From an uncultured Trueperaceae bacterium (GTDB lineage Bacteria > Deinococcota > Deinococci > Deinococcales > Trueperaceae): 38,039 bases of DNA. The position numbers were made by a program, and so were the translations under genes. The number at the start of each line of letters is the position of its first letter. The first letter of the stretch is position 1. The stretch is taken from assembly GCA_913057165.1 (NCBI GenBank), contig CAJXNS010000010.1:1-38039 (forward strand), read 5' to 3'. Below are positions 27,157-32,725 of the stretch, piece after piece. The notes beneath the pieces were generated by a model, which searched no databases, was not told the DNA's origin, and was given only the letters and a program-made list of their open reading frames with translations.

Positions 27157-30100
27157 GTGCAACTAAACCGCGTCACCGTCTCCGGCTTCAAAAGTTTTGG
27201 CGACCGCGTGACCGTCGAGTTTTCGCCTGGTGTGACGGCCATTGTCGGTCCGAACGGAAGCGGGAAAAGCAACCTGCTTGACGCCTTGCGTTGGGCGACG
27301 GGTGGTGGGCGTGCCCGTGAGTTTCGGGCGGAAGACAAGACCGAACTGATTTTCCACGGTGCCAGTGGCAAGAAACGCCTGAGCCGCGCCGATGTTGAAG
27401 TCGAGATGCAGCTGCCCGATCGGCGCATCAAAATCACCCGCAGTTTGGACCGCGATGGCGTCACCAAGCTCACCCTCAACGGCCGGAACGCCCGCTTTGT
27501 GGATGTCGATGAAGCGCTAGCCGGGAGCGGTCTTGGGCGGGGGAGTTTGGCGATCATCGGTCAAGGTGAGGTCAGTGGTGTCCTCATGGCCGACCCACCG
27601 AGGCTTCTCTCGTACGTCGCGGAAGCCGCCGGTGTGGCCCAACTCTCGAACCGTCGCGAGCAAACCGTCCGGCGGCTCGATACCGCGCGTGAACACTTGG
27701 CGCGACTCGAAGAAAAACTTGCCGAGGACCAAGCCCGGCTTGACGCCCTCGCAAGTGAGGCGGAAGACGCCCGCCGACACCGCGAACTCACCGCTCGTAA
27801 CCAGCAGTTACGCTTCACCCTGATTGACGCGCGGGTCGCCAGCCTCGAACGGGACGTCAAAACACTCAAAGCGTCCGTCACGGAAGGTGAATCAAAGCTT
27901 GCCGCTGCGCGCGAAGCCGCTGACGAAGCCCGCGAACACGTCAAAGAAGCCCGTGAACGCGACCAGAAAGCAGAAGCGGCCCACCGCGAAGCGACCGCGC
28001 TGCACGCCAAAGCCCTCGGTGACGTTCGCGTCGCCGAGCACGCGCTGGAGGCCGCCACCACCCGAGCGGGTGACCTAGAACGCCAGCGGGAGCGCTTGCA
28101 AGAAGAACGCGCCGAGCTTGAACAGCGCCAACCTCCAGAGGCACCCACCGACGACCTCGCCGCCTTAGCAGACGCCATGCGGGTCGCAGACGAGGCGCTC
28201 GATGCTGCCCGCGCCGCCCTGCAGGAAGCCCAGCAGGAAGCCAATGGAGCGTGGGAGGCCCGCCAAGCCGCCGAACAACAAGCAGCCGCCAGCGCCCGAG
28301 CAGTCGCCCAACAACAGGAACGCATCGAAGCGCATGCACGGCGGCGTCGTGAACTCGAGGCACGCCTTGAAACGCTAAAACAAGAACGCGTCAAACTCGA
28401 GGGCAACGACCCGACACAGGACGAAGGCAACGCCGCGGCAACCGTCACCGCGGCCGAAGAGCGGCTTGAGGCCGCCCGAACGCGCCTCGAGGAGGCCCAC
28501 CAAGCGCACGCCACGGCCGATGCAGACGTGCGCTCCCAACGGACGCACGTCGAACGACTCAAAGCAGCGCTTGAAAACCGTCAAGGCTACGCCGAAGGAC
28601 CCAAACAGGCGTTGGCAAGCGGCATCAGCGGCATCCTTGGGTCGCTCGCTGACCTCCTGACGGTCCCTGACGCGTACGTTGAAGCGGTCGGCCTTGCACT
28701 CGGCCGGCGGGCTGAGTACATCGTGACGCAAGACGAAACCACCGCTCGCAAGACCCTTAAGCACGTGCGCGACGCGGGTGGATGGGTGACGCTCCTACCG
28801 ATCGACCTAGCGAAAGCGGCGCCCGCCCGCGACCGAGCCGAAGCCCTGCTTGGTGAAGACGGCGTCGTCGGGCGTGCCATCGACCTCATTGACTTTGAGG
28901 ATCGCTACGACCCTGTGGTCCGCAACGTCCTGGCTGACACGCTCATTGTTGAAACCACCGAACAGGCTTACGCGCTGGCCAAGAAGCACACCACCCGACC
29001 ACGCATGGTCACCCAAGACGGGTCGGTGTTTGACGTCGGGGGCGCCCTTTCGGGTGGGCGGCGCCGGGCGGTCAATGCCCTCCTGGGAGCCGCCAAAGAT
29101 CTGGAAGACAACGAAGCACGCCTTGTGGAGCTTGAAACCGCTGTCGAGGTAAGCCAAACCGAGCTGACCGACGCACAAGGTGCGTTCCTGGCCGCACGCA
29201 GCGAACGTGATACCGCTCGCGAACGGTACGAATCGTTGCGTACCCGTGCCACGGAGTGGCGTGAAGCGGCCGCCATCAACGCCCGCATGATGAGCGACGT
29301 TGAGGCGGAACTCAGCGGCCTTGAAAGCGGTCCAGAGCCTGCCGTTCCGGACGTCCAGGCGAACGAGACACCTGACGTGAGCGCCGCACGGGAGCGGCAT
29401 GAAGCCGCCACGAAGGCGCTTGAGGCGCAACGGGTCACAGAAGCCCAAGCGCGCGAGGCCGCCGGCTCGGCACGCCACGCCCACGCCATCGCCACCGAAC
29501 GACGCCACGCCTACGAGCAAGCCCAAGCCCGGTTTGACGGTGACCTCAAACGTTTGGCCCAGATCAACAGCGAACTCGGCCAGTGGGCGGACACCATCGA
29601 GCACGCATGGAACGCCGTCAAGGACTTAGATGAGCGTGTGGCGCGCACCAAAGCCGCTCTGCCGGACGACCTGGCCGCGACCGGCGAAGCCCGCGAGGCC
29701 GCACGGCAAGCACTCACCGAAGCGGAATCGGCCGTGGACGCAGGAAACGAACGCGTGACGCAGCTAAGCACCGAACTTGAGCAGCACCGCGTCAACCTGG
29801 CGCGCCGCGAAACATCGCTTGATGCGGCTCGCGAAGAACGCACACAGTTTCCTGATGGCATGGTGGCGCTCGATATCGATGAGCGTGCTGCCCGGCAAGA
29901 GCTGCGATCGGGTGAGGCGGAACTGGAACGCATCGGAGACGTCAACCACCGCGCCTTAGATGAACTTAAGGGCCTGAAAGACGAGCACGAAACGCGTTTG
30001 GCCGATACCACGGACGCCCGGAAGGCCGTGGATGAACTCGACCGGACGCTGGGCCGCCTTGACCGCGAAACCACGCAAAAGCTGCGTGAAGCGGTGGAGG

Positions 30101-30606
30101 GGGTCCGCGAGCGGTTCTTGGCCCACATCGGGGAGTTGTTCGGTGCCGATGGGGAAGGGGACATCACCGCTGAGTTTGAAGAGGGCCGACCGACGGGACT
30201 CAAGATTCGCCTGCAGCCTCCCGGTAAGCAAACCCAAGCGCTTGGCCTGCTGTCGGTGGGGGAGAGAACCATGGGGGCACTGGCGTTCCTGTTCGCCCTC
30301 ATGGGCGAAGAGCAAGGCCGCCAAGGGCTACCGGTCGCGGTGTTGGATGAGGTGGACGCGCCTCTGGATGAAGCGAACATCCGCCGCTACCGTCACTTCC
30401 TCGAACGGTTGGCTGAGTCGGGCACGCAGTTCGTCCTCATCACCCACCAAAAAGCCACCTTCGAGGTTGCGGACGTGATTTGGGGCGTCACCACCGAGCG
30501 TGGTGTGAGCCGCTTGTTCTCGATTCAAAAAGAAGCCGACGAGCCACGGGTCCCTGAGGACGGTGTGCGGCAGGAAGGCTTAAACCTGTCGGGCGTTGAG
30601 GCCTAA
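27157..30606 (+). CDS. smc: Chromosome segregation ATPase SMC
   Basis: The 1149-residue product has the SMC layout: N-terminal head with Walker A GPNGSGKSN (31-39) and FRAEDKTELIFHGA, long coiled coil (about 165-480), hinge (about 485-640, GILGSLADLLTVPDAYVEAVGLALGRR cut here as two stretches), returning coiled coil (about 665-980), and C-terminal head with the signature LLSVGERTMG (1031-1040), Walker B VAVLDEVDAP (Asp1064, Glu1065) and the switch His1097 (ITHQKA). SMC loads and compacts chromosomes with ScpA/ScpB. The signature reads LSVGE where LSGGE is usual. The GTG start follows the M20 stop directly, so translation is coupled. Length is normal for bacterial SMC. Confidence 0.97.
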   Translation: MQLNRVTVSGFKSFGDRVTVEFSPGVTAIVGPNGSGKSNLLDALRWATGGGRAREFRAEDKTELIFHGASGKKRLSRADVEVEMQLPDRRIKITRSLDRDGVTKLTLNGRNARFVDVDEALAGSGLGRGSLAIIGQGEVSGVLMADPPRLLSYVAEAAGVAQLSNRREQTVRRLDTAREHLARLEEKLAEDQARLDALASEAEDARRHRELTARNQQLRFTLIDARVASLERDVKTLKASVTEGESKLAAAREAADEAREHVKEARERDQKAEAAHREATALHAKALGDVRVAEHALEAATTRAGDLERQRERLQEERAELEQRQPPEAPTDDLAALADAMRVADEALDAARAALQEAQQEANGAWEARQAAEQQAAASARAVAQQQERIEAHARRRRELEARLETLKQERVKLEGNDPTQDEGNAAATVTAAEERLEAARTRLEEAHQAHATADADVRSQRTHVERLKAALENRQGYAEGPKQALASGISGILGSLADLLTVPDAYVEAVGLALGRRAEYIVTQDETTARKTLKHVRDAGGWVTLLPIDLAKAAPARDRAEALLGEDGVVGRAIDLIDFEDRYDPVVRNVLADTLIVETTEQAYALAKKHTTRPRMVTQDGSVFDVGGALSGGRRRAVNALLGAAKDLEDNEARLVELETAVEVSQTELTDAQGAFLAARSERDTARERYESLRTRATEWREAAAINARMMSDVEAELSGLESGPEPAVPDVQANETPDVSAARERHEAATKALEAQRVTEAQAREAAGSARHAHAIATERRHAYEQAQARFDGDLKRLAQINSELGQWADTIEHAWNAVKDLDERVARTKAALPDDLAATGEAREAARQALTEAESAVDAGNERVTQLSTELEQHRVNLARRETSLDAAREERTQFPDGMVALDIDERAARQELRSGEAELERIGDVNHRALDELKGLKDEHETRLADTTDARKAVDELDRTLGRLDRETTQKLREAVEGVRERFLAHIGELFGADGEGDITAEFEEGRPTGLKIRLQPPGKQTQALGLLSVGERTMGALAFLFALMGEEQGRQGLPVAVLDEVDAPLDEANIRRYRHFLERLAESGTQFVLITHQKATFEVADVIWGVTTERGVSRLFSIQKEADEPRVPEDGVRQEGLNLSGVEA

Positions 30607-30609
30607 AGC

Positions 30610-31296
30610 GTGACAAAGCAGAACGCCTGGCAGGTGATGCACCATCCGTCGCTAGCCAGCACCCAAGCGCACGCCCGCAGCATGATTGACACCTCAACCG
30701 GGCCCCTTCATCGCGTCTCGGTGACCACGGATCAGCAGACCGCTGGCGTGGGCCGCCGCGGTTCAACCTTTGAGAGCCCTCCAGGGGGTGCGTACCAAAC
30801 CTTGGTGCTGCATGAGCCGTCCTTGGATTGGGTGGTTTCACCGTCACTTGCGGTTGGCCTGGCGTTTGAACTTGCATTCCGACTCAGGCAGGAAGGGTTC
30901 GACAGCCAAATCAAATGGCCTAACGACGTGTACTTAGGCGACCTTAAGGCCGGTGGCATTTTGATGGAACGCCATGCGGGCCACCTGCTGATCGGCGTGG
31001 GTTTGAACGCCCTCAACGCGCCACCCGCAGGAGCCGCACAACTTGGCCGTTCACCAGAAATCGTGCGCGCGTGGGTACGTGAGTCGTGGGACGCCTTAGA
31101 CAGGGCCGGCGGCAACTGGCTGGCGCGTAGGGAAGAGGTCCCTCACGTCCTAGCTGGCCGACGTGTGCGGGTGGGTGGGTCTATCGGTCAGGTGCTTGGC
31201 ATCGCGTCGGACGGTCGCCTGGTGCTCAATGTAGACGGCGAACCGACGCATGTGACCGCCGGTCATGTCGAGCTGCTGCCGCCGTCTGGGTCGTAA
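30610..31296 (+). CDS. birA: Biotin-protein ligase (BirA family, without DNA-binding domain)
   Basis: The 228-residue product attaches biotin to carboxyl carrier proteins such as acetyl-CoA carboxylase. The catalytic loop TTDQQTAGVGRRGSTFESPPGGAY stands where E. coli has GRGRRGR, followed by QIKWPNDVYLGDLKAGGILMER and HLLIGVGLNAL, all diagnostic. A C-terminal SH3-like domain (about 175-225) is present. There is no N-terminal helix-turn-helix, so this is a monofunctional (class I) ligase. The start is GTG at 30610, three bases after the smc stop. The 3' end overlaps the convergent recombinase gene by 34 bases. Confidence 0.93.
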   Translation: MTKQNAWQVMHHPSLASTQAHARSMIDTSTGPLHRVSVTTDQQTAGVGRRGSTFESPPGGAYQTLVLHEPSLDWVVSPSLAVGLAFELAFRLRQEGFDSQIKWPNDVYLGDLKAGGILMERHAGHLLIGVGLNALNAPPAGAAQLGRSPEIVRAWVRESWDALDRAGGNWLARREEVPHVLAGRRVRVGGSIGQVLGIASDGRLVLNVDGEPTHVTAGHVELLPPSGS

Positions 31297-32591
31297 CCGC
31301 GCGAGAGGTCGTTGGCCACACCGCGACGTTCCTGACGGCTTCGTTTGCTGTACCGCCGCGTGGTCTGCAGGTTGGCGTGACGCAAGAGGTCGGCAGCGGC
31401 ATCAATACCGTGCAGCCGCGTGACTTCGGTGCCGGCGGTATGGCGAAGGCCGTGGACACCGCGACCCTCGTAGCGCACGCCGCTTCGCTCGCAAAGGCGT
31501 TTCAGGCGCTGGCGGGCCTGGGCAGGACCAAAACCGAGCACCGTTTGTTCGGGTTGCACGACGTTTGGCCTGGTGGCTTCCAGCGCGTCAAGGAGGTCGT
31601 TGGAGGCTGGCACGTCGCGTACCCGGCCGCCTTTGCCGACCACCTTGCGAAGCAGTCCATCCCGCCGGTCGACCTGAGACCACGTGAGCGCGCACGCTTC
31701 AGCGTTCCTAAGGCCGGCACCAGCGCACAGCAACACCAGCGCGCGGTCACGCACGTCGCCGTGGGCAAGTAGGCGTCCGACTTCAGCGGTGGAGTAGGCC
31801 TCACGCTTGTCTTCTGGGGCTTGCAGGTCTGCAGGGGCCGTCAGGTCACGGAACGGGTCGGCATCGGTGGCCCCCACGTGACGTAGGGCGCGGTAGAGCG
31901 CCTTAGCGGCCGCCAGTTTGACGGCCACCGTGGATGCGGCCCTCCGCATGCCGGTGTGGCCGTTGCGGCCGGTCATCGGTTCGGTCTCAAGCCGAATGAG
32001 CCACATGGCGCCGGCGTCGCTGCTGGGTTTCAGCAGGCTTTCGTGCGCCCAGGCTTCCACGAGGTCGGCAATGCCGCGCTTGTACGCCGCGCGTGTGCGC
32101 GGACTCATGCCTGCGCGTTTCCGGCCACGCGTCGCGAGCACGTACTGCGTGACGTCCCACAACCGCTCTGGATCGCGCTCATGGGCCGCCTTTACAGCCT
32201 CGATCCGCCTCGATTCTGGCGTCAGTCGCGCCCACCGGTCGACGGCATCGACCAGGGACGGCTCGGCACGGGCGATTTCGGTGCTGTCGCTTATGTCTAG
32301 GCTGCGACCCTCCGCTGAACGCAGCAACGCCGCGATCGCTTGCTTGAACATGGCGTGCGTCCGTACGCGGCTTACGCCAAACTCGCGGGCCATGTCGGCC
32401 AGCGAGCGGGCGTCATCGCCTGCCGCGACAGTGGCCTCAAGAAGCACACGCTGGCGTGGATCCAGTTCGCGGGCGAAGGTGTGAAGCATCGAAAGGACCG
32501 CGGCTGTTGCGCCGGGATCACGCTGGACGTCACGCAAAGACTTCACGGTGCCGTCAGCCTTGAAGAGCGCGGATGAAACGTCTTGGCTCAT
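31263..32591 (-). CDS. Tyrosine recombinase with N-terminal sigma-region-4-like helix-turn-helix
   Basis: The 442-residue product ends in a complete tyrosine recombinase catalytic domain (about 265-425): Arg295 (AGAGLRNAEACALTW), Lys320 (VVGKGGRVRDVP), His380 and Arg383 (VHGLRHTAGTEV), His405 (LLRHANLQTTRRYS) and Tyr414. A SAM-like core-binding domain (about 162-240, SPRTRAAYKRGIADLVEAWA) precedes it. The first 160 residues are extra; residues 44-91 (LDPRQRVLLEAT, SLADMAREFGVSRVRTHAMFKQAIAALL) resemble sigma-70 region 4.2. Ordinary XerC/D proteins are about 300 residues. It is a solitary gene with no mobile element hallmarks beside it. It could be this genome's Xer recombinase or a domesticated integrase. 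TATACT in the AT-rich upstream region is a candidate promoter. Confidence 0.9.
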   Translation of the reverse strand: MSQDVSSALFKADGTVKSLRDVQRDPGATAAVLSMLHTFARELDPRQRVLLEATVAAGDDARSLADMAREFGVSRVRTHAMFKQAIAALLRSAEGRSLDISDSTEIARAEPSLVDAVDRWARLTPESRRIEAVKAAHERDPERLWDVTQYVLATRGRKRAGMSPRTRAAYKRGIADLVEAWAHESLLKPSSDAGAMWLIRLETEPMTGRNGHTGMRRAASTVAVKLAAAKALYRALRHVGATDADPFRDLTAPADLQAPEDKREAYSTAEVGRLLAHGDVRDRALVLLCAGAGLRNAEACALTWSQVDRRDGLLRKVVGKGGRVRDVPASNDLLDALEATRPNVVQPEQTVLGFGPAQARQRLKRLCERSGVRYEGRGVHGLRHTAGTEVTRLHGIDAAADLLRHANLQTTRRYSKRSRQERRGVANDLSRGYDPDGGSSST

Positions 32592-32630
32592 GGGTTGTGA
32601 CGCCCGATCGGTTGGTTGGAATGCCGCATC

Positions 32631-32690
32631 ATTGTTAATAGTATAACGACAAGAGACATTATCGTAATGTTAATACTTCACATTGGCTAC
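32631..32690. promoter_or_regulatory. AT-rich regulatory or recombination region between recombinase and divergent secreted-protein gene
   Basis: This 60-base stretch is far richer in A+T than the rest of the window. It contains direct repeats TGTTAATA (32633-32640 and 32668-32675, 35 bases apart) and an imperfect inverted repeat ATAACGA (32643-32649) / TCGTAAT (32662-32668). On the minus strand TTACGA, 16 bases and TATACT form a candidate promoter for the recombinase. TAATGTTAATA (32665-32675) resembles the XerD half of dif sites (TTATGTTAAAT). Confidence 0.55.
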
Positions 32691-32712
32691 AAGCACCAAG
32701 GCCAACTGCGAA

Positions 32713-32718
32713 TATTCT
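32713..32718 (+). promoter_or_regulatory. Leaderless-type -10 box for the small secreted protein
   Basis: TATTCT ends seven bases before the ATG at 32726 and there is no ribosome site between them. Confidence 0.5.
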
Positions 32719-32725
32719 TCAACGC

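Follow-up and report, generated by a model that had tools for sequence, protein, structure and literature searches.

A Trueperaceae Xer recombinase with a sigma-70 region-4-like domain and a neighbouring dif-like site flanked by -35-like boxes

We report that the Xer-type tyrosine recombinase of an uncultured Trueperaceae bacterium carries an N-terminal domain homologous to sigma-70 region 4, and that its gene lies beside a dif-like site whose core is flanked by two boxes resembling -35 elements. Both were found in a stretch of 38,039 nucleotides that was analysed as a whole and is called the window below (Table 1). We favour, though with reserve, the reading that this single Xer resolves chromosome dimers by acting with FtsK on the adjacent site, located at the replication terminus, and that the sigma-like domain binds the boxes as arms; recombination, dimer resolution and arm binding are inferred. 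The support available from sequence comparison lies in the fusion and its homology, the status of the gene as sole recombinase, the FtsK gamma domain, the conserved armed site, its terminus position in relatives, and arms that track the domain. An earlier note on this DNA had described the fused gene; the dif-like site, the sole-recombinase status and the non-fused gene that other genera of the family carry at this smc-birA locus go beyond it.

Table 1. Features of the window discussed in the text (positions are those of the window; arm boxes are given in gene orientation).
Feature	Position	Strand	Remarks
smc and birA-like genes	27157..31296	+	order beside oppositely oriented xer kept in several other family genera (tblastn synteny)
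Xer-type tyrosine recombinase gene with N-terminal extension	31266..32591, stop codon 31263-31265	-	442 aa; sole PF00589 match of own genome
Catalytic domain, residues 278-418	31338..31760	-	Pfam PF00589 Phage_integrase 1.4e-20
Core-binding (SAM-like) domain, residues 160-238	31878..32114	-	Pfam PF02899 6.8e-5
N-terminal extension, residues 1-100	32292..32591	-	Pfam and PDB profile searches, AlphaFold model, alignment
Sigma-70 region-4-like helix-turn-helix, residues 42-91	32319-32468	-	within N-terminal extension
Intergenic region holding the site	32592..32725	.	between xer and divergent 160-aa ORF
Right arm box TTAACA	32633..32638	-	90% mean pairwise identity within genus
dif-like core, 11-6-11 imperfect palindrome CATTACGATAA-TGTCTC-TTGTCGTTATA	32642..32669	-	8/11 arm complementarity
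Left arm box TTAACA	32668..32673	-	96% mean pairwise identity within genus

Results

The recombinase and its N-terminal domain

The minus-strand reading frame encodes an intact catalytic domain, as the earlier note had stated, and we confirmed the six residues that it named (R295, K320, H380, R383, H405 and Y414), so that the R-K-H-R-H/W-Y pattern is complete. The fused Xer proteins of two genomes of other genera, G108 and G084 (the copy designated G084b), have Q as the fifth catalytic residue (LRQA versus LRHA) and are otherwise intact for R-K-H-R-Y. In the bacterium's own genome (1.78 Mb, 95% complete) the xer gene was the only match to Phage_integrase (PF00589), and the second XerC/D whose existence had been raised as a question was not found there. 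The same genome encodes an FtsK gamma domain (83 bits), a domain that is not required by all single-recombinase Xer/dif systems. A second tyrosine recombinase was present in G107, a genome of the same genus. We concluded that the window gene is most likely this bacterium's only chromosome-untangling recombinase.

The search with the Sigma70_r4 model that had been suggested as a check gave a divided answer, failing for the single sequence and succeeding for the family. In a Pfam scan of the full protein, Sigma70_r4 matched residues 42-89 at 0.019 (14.9 bits, below the cut-off of 24.1), and residues 1-100 scanned alone gave 0.0023, still under the Pfam cut-off. Because this single-sequence match was weak, we assembled the family of N-terminal domains. 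Six of the seven family domains matched Sigma70_r4 (best 1.6e-5), and a profile of all seven matched 84 sequences of the PDB, the best being RpoS region 4 at 4.7e-7; the 60 matches listed out of these 84 were all sigma factors or sigma chimaeras. The claim that the sigma-region-4-like fusion is real was thus upheld by the family profile. Searched against the own genome, the profile recovered, next best after xer, a 505-aa frame on contig C20 (6.5e-6) and a 487-aa frame on contig C6 (2.1e-5), whose identity as sigma factors is unconfirmed.

The motif GVSR.R was invariant in the alignment of the seven domains. An AlphaFold model of residues 1-100 was all-helical (pLDDT 87.3), and most structures returned by a Foldseek search with it were of sigma domain 4 (TM on the target up to 0.71); the E-values, above 0.1, are not significant, the domain being very small. 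The Pfam scan of the window recombinase gave no match to sigma region 2 or 3, and neither the protein nor residues 1-100 gave a Pfam match to an arm-binding (AB) domain of the CL0081 fold, which consists of three beta strands and a helix. Within the genus the N-terminal domain is conserved throughout and is under purifying selection (e.g. dN 0.18, dS 1.4). We regard the homology of residues 42-91 to sigma-70 region 4 as established.

Distribution and genomic surroundings

Among 111 genomes from the phylum, 7 had the extension, and they belong to three genera (five genomes of the window's genus, G084 and G108), which answers in the affirmative the earlier question of whether the fusion is conserved. 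Trees neither rejected one origin of the fused genes (p-AU 0.17) nor supported it; on the sequences at hand, a shared origin is therefore neither shown nor rejected. Contig C1 of G084 offers a natural comparison within one genome: of its two Xer genes, at 2.56 Mb and 3.58 Mb, one is non-fused and has an arm-less dif-like site at the GC-skew switch, and the other is fused and has an armed site of its own elsewhere.

On one side the window gene is neighboured by the smc and birA-like genes, and on the other by the divergent 160-aa ORF, a Kef-type antiporter and hisS, in agreement with the earlier description of a solitary gene without phage or transposon neighbours. In several other genera of the family, the place beside smc and birA is taken by a non-fused xer (334-354 aa), and the fused gene thus occupies the family's standing xer locus.

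These surroundings bear on the possibility that the protein is a mobile-element or phage integrase, with the N-terminal domain serving for arm binding and the upstream site for attachment. Arm-binding domains are indeed strong predictors of mobile-element function (PMC8138268). However, the smc/birA synteny is conserved over several genera, the gene is the sole tyrosine recombinase and stands alongside an FtsK gamma domain, and in three closed genomes the xer-linked site is at the terminus or close to it. Moreover, no phage or plasmid relative spans the N-terminal region: searches of phage, plasmid and viral collections gave relatives of the core domains only, none covering it. The genus site was likewise absent from the viral contigs searched. 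We consider an integrase of this kind very improbable, and the idea already largely refuted.

A dif-like site beside xer

The dif-like core lies 50 bp upstream of the window xer gene. A core pattern for the genus, searched with three mismatches allowed, was found with no mismatch in all five genus genomes and once in each except G104; the core of G107 matched although that genome had been left out when the pattern was made. The second core copy of G104 stands at a contig end, before another xer start, and is probably a strain variant. More broadly, an 11-6-11 palindrome whose inner halves are dif-like was present upstream of most of the family's 'clade A' xer genes, for example AAGTCTGATAA-CTAGCC-TTATCAGACTT in G093 (11/11 complementarity) and CCCCCACCTAA-GGCTGA-TTAGGTGGGTA in G108. 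The core of the non-fused type, CTGATAA-N6-TTATCAG, was unique in six genomes. The canonical dif pattern, with two mismatches allowed, did not occur in the own genome, and in other genomes it was uninformative because AT-rich genomes matched a reversed control equally.

Several further sites were noted. G082 has a second perfect CTGATAA-N6-TTATCAG away from xer (contig C45:1638-1657), which may represent a dif duplication or an integrated element. Clade B xer genes, the second Xer paralogue group of the family, have a conserved TTTGATAA half-site just upstream, with no clear second half (L052, L053, L055, L030). At locus L051 of G001, which belongs to another family of the order, a perfect 11-6-11 palindrome, AGTTCTGGAAA-GAATCA-TTTCCAGAACT, lies directly upstream of xer, and this sequence suggests that the xer-site module is older than the family. 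In G107 the site and both arms are kept about 1 kb from xer, and a toxin-antitoxin-like gene pair lies between. This pair (L035, contig C103, 5151-5781; Gp49/HigB-like, PF05973 1.7e-21, and HTH antitoxin-like, HTH_31 8.8e-12) separates a site and a gene that are adjacent in the other genus genomes, and it may be a dif-module-like insertion.

Boxes flanking the core

Cores of the genus have a GTTAAC/TTAACA box on either side, with repeats of 6-8 bp. Mean pairwise identity within the genus was high in the boxes (Table 1) and in the core (88%), and lower in the spacer between core and right box (44%) and in the outside flanks (34%). The Truepera-like genome G108 has an 11-bp inverted pair, TTGTCAACACC / GGTGTTGACAA, that holds the consensus -35 box TTGACA (as a TTGACAA inverted pair). 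The site of G084b has a 10-bp direct repeat, CCTATTCCCT, and its arms, CCTATTCCC, are not -35-like. Measured from the dyad, arm centres lay at -16/+19, -18/+20 and -15.5/+17.5 bp.

A shuffle test was used to judge these repeats, on cores that had been chosen after sequence inspection. None of 5000 shuffles reached the G108 repeat and none of 5000 the G084b repeat; for the genus arms p was only about 0.02-0.09 per single genome. At eight sites of non-fused genes the same test detected no flanking repeats beyond chance. Since the armed sites accompany fused genes and none was seen at the eight non-fused sites, the arms go with the domain, albeit in few independent lineages. The fused lineages possibly reflect one event, so that domain and arms perhaps arose once, and the three-versus-eight contrast then amounts to few independent observations.

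We compared the arms with the residues of the recognition helix. Work on sigma70 has shown that E585 makes contact with the C in the G:C pair at -33, that R584 acts at -31, and that the substitutions E585Q and R588H relax specificity at -33 (PMC2613000). The residues aligned to sigma70 584-589 are RERVRK in G108, RVR[TAV]H[AT] in the genus and RERAGA in G084b. Thus G108 retains the sigma70-type E585 and R588, and its arms read TTGACA; the genus has V and H at the 585 and 588 positions and keeps R584, and its arms read TTAACA, altered at -33 and the same at -31. This correspondence rests on one comparison and was noticed only once the arms were known, and G084b, with RERAGA and arms that are not -35-like, does not fit it simply.

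The boxes could also be explained if the sigma-like domain were only a passive extension, binding DNA non-specifically or serving dimerisation, and if the repeats were bound by another host protein or formed part of a longer core recognised by the core-binding domain. It would suit such an extension that the arm boxes nearly abut the core and that the G084b arms are unlike -35 boxes despite a homologous domain. Nevertheless, the cores of non-fused relatives have no such adjoining repeats, and in the two readable cases the arm sequence follows the recognition-helix residues, in line with the sigma70 data (PMC2613000). We judged this explanation unlikely.

The main rival to arm binding is autoregulation through the same boxes. 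Here the protein would still be a dimer-resolving Xer, and the helix-turn-helix and the TTAACA boxes would let it bind its own 5' region and repress or tune xer, possibly while contacting RNA polymerase. Sigma region 4 binds -35 boxes and the beta flap of RNA polymerase, and in most genomes the site is 40-125 bp upstream of the xer start codon, an operator-like position. Yet the arms are near-symmetric about the core dyad, and inspection of the genus sequences revealed no consistent -10 element at a distance of 17 bp from the boxes. Furthermore, the armed site of G107 is removed from xer by about 1 kb; the arms stay with the core and not with the promoter, which argues against autoregulation as the sole function. 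We hold autoregulation to be doubtful. The earlier note had suggested that a second DNA-recognition module might target the recombinase to specific sites or let it control its own transcription. The first suggestion gains support from the -35-like repeats flanking the dif-like core, whereas the second is merely not ruled out, given that the 5' region of xer contains the site.

Position relative to the replication terminus

Cumulative GC skew in the window reached its maximum at 32623, compared with 32642-32669 for the core. Because skew in the own genome was read over the 38-kb window only, the terminus position there is indirect. In three closed relatives, GC skew and the position of dnaA placed the xer-linked site at the terminus or not far from it. 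In G093 the cumulative skew maximum of a 200-kb stretch was 1 kb from the site. In G108 the skew maximum was 32 kb away, but the site (1,630,758) and the point opposite dnaA (1,630,692) were about 70 bp apart. In G084 the skew switched 2 kb away from the non-fused copy's site, and the fused-copy site was not at a switch. For that genome dnaA was ruled out as a marker of the terminus by the GC skew, which switches at the non-fused copy.

Because the sites of relatives are at or near the replication terminus, the window can be read as a single-recombinase xer-dif module like XerS/difSL. Together with the FtsK gamma domain, the terminus data support chromosome dimer resolution by such a module; recombination and dimer resolution themselves are inferred.

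Discussion

In the mechanism that we propose, a single Xer recombinase would act with FtsK on the adjacent dif-like site at the replication terminus and so resolve chromosome dimers. The core-binding and catalytic domains of each protomer would bind one half of the 11-6-11 core, and the N-terminal helix-turn-helix of the same protomer would read the -35-like box just outside it, with its centre 16-20 bp from the dyad (TTAACA here, TTGACA in G108). Reading the arms would lengthen the recognised site and may raise specificity or the order of assembly, and FtsK would activate the reaction at the terminus. Some observations count against the arm-binding model. The arms of G084b are not -35-like, its site is off the skew switch, and its genome also keeps a non-fused Xer with a terminus site; Q replaces the fifth catalytic H in both G084b and G108; the skew maximum of G108 is 32 kb off; and the arms also lie where promoter or operator elements of xer would be.

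That the recombinase gene lies close to its site is characteristic of XerS and XerH systems (PMC5357621). The module described here resembles XerS/difSL of streptococci and lactococci and XerH/difH of Helicobacter and Campylobacter in having one recombinase per chromosome, a nearby site near the terminus, and FtsK. Whereas XerS and XerH have about 356 aa, the window Xer adds a sigma-region-4-like domain of about 100 aa and its site adds the flanking boxes; the core spacer is 6 bp, compared with 11 bp in difSL. With XerC/XerD-dif the module shares the catalytic fold and residues, the 11-6-11 site and the FtsK gamma domain, but it has one recombinase instead of two and an extra domain, and the canonical dif pattern was not found in its own genome. 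The NCBIfam XerC model matched the window protein at 9.1e-21 (74.5 bits), far under the equivalog cut-off of 335.

The order of accessory DNA-binding, core-binding and catalytic domains, and the accessory repeats beside the core, recall lambda Int, Tn916 Int and IntSXT. Known AB domains form one beta-sheet clan, CL0081, tied to mobile elements, and the Xer subgroup has been defined as 'simple' recombinases with core-binding and catalytic domains only (PMC8138268). Unlike the domains of those integrases, that of the window protein is an all-helical, sigma-region-4-like helix-turn-helix on a chromosomal Xer, and its arms are near the core rather than far off. It shares with sigma-70 region 4 the helix-turn-helix motif with GVSRxR, and the arms resemble the -35 element; in contrast to sigma-70 factors, the protein has no region 2 or 3, is fused to a recombinase, and in the genus has altered recognition-helix residues. 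We infer, without binding data, that the domain acts like an arm-binding domain although it lies outside the CL0081 clan, and that the system is akin to single-recombinase Xer/dif. Equally without binding data, we infer convergence with the AB domains of phage integrases, here on a housekeeping Xer.

Whether a housekeeping dimer recombinase independently gained an arm-binding domain by capturing sigma region 4, and dif gained -35-like arms that change with the residues at the E585 and R588 positions against base -33, is in our estimate evenly balanced. A literature search, made mostly without subscription papers, found no account of the fusion, nor of dif in Deinococcus or Truepera; a published study of FtsK in D. 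radiodurans used E. coli dif.

If the proposal is correct, exchanging the sigma-type recognition residues should switch the preferred arm between TTGACA and TTAACA. The rule that an arm-binding domain marks mobile elements would be broken by a chromosomal Xer whose helix-turn-helix arm reader was acquired separately, and such a protein would show how arm-binding architecture can start. For the Trueperaceae, in which we found no description of one, it would provide a system of chromosome dimer resolution.
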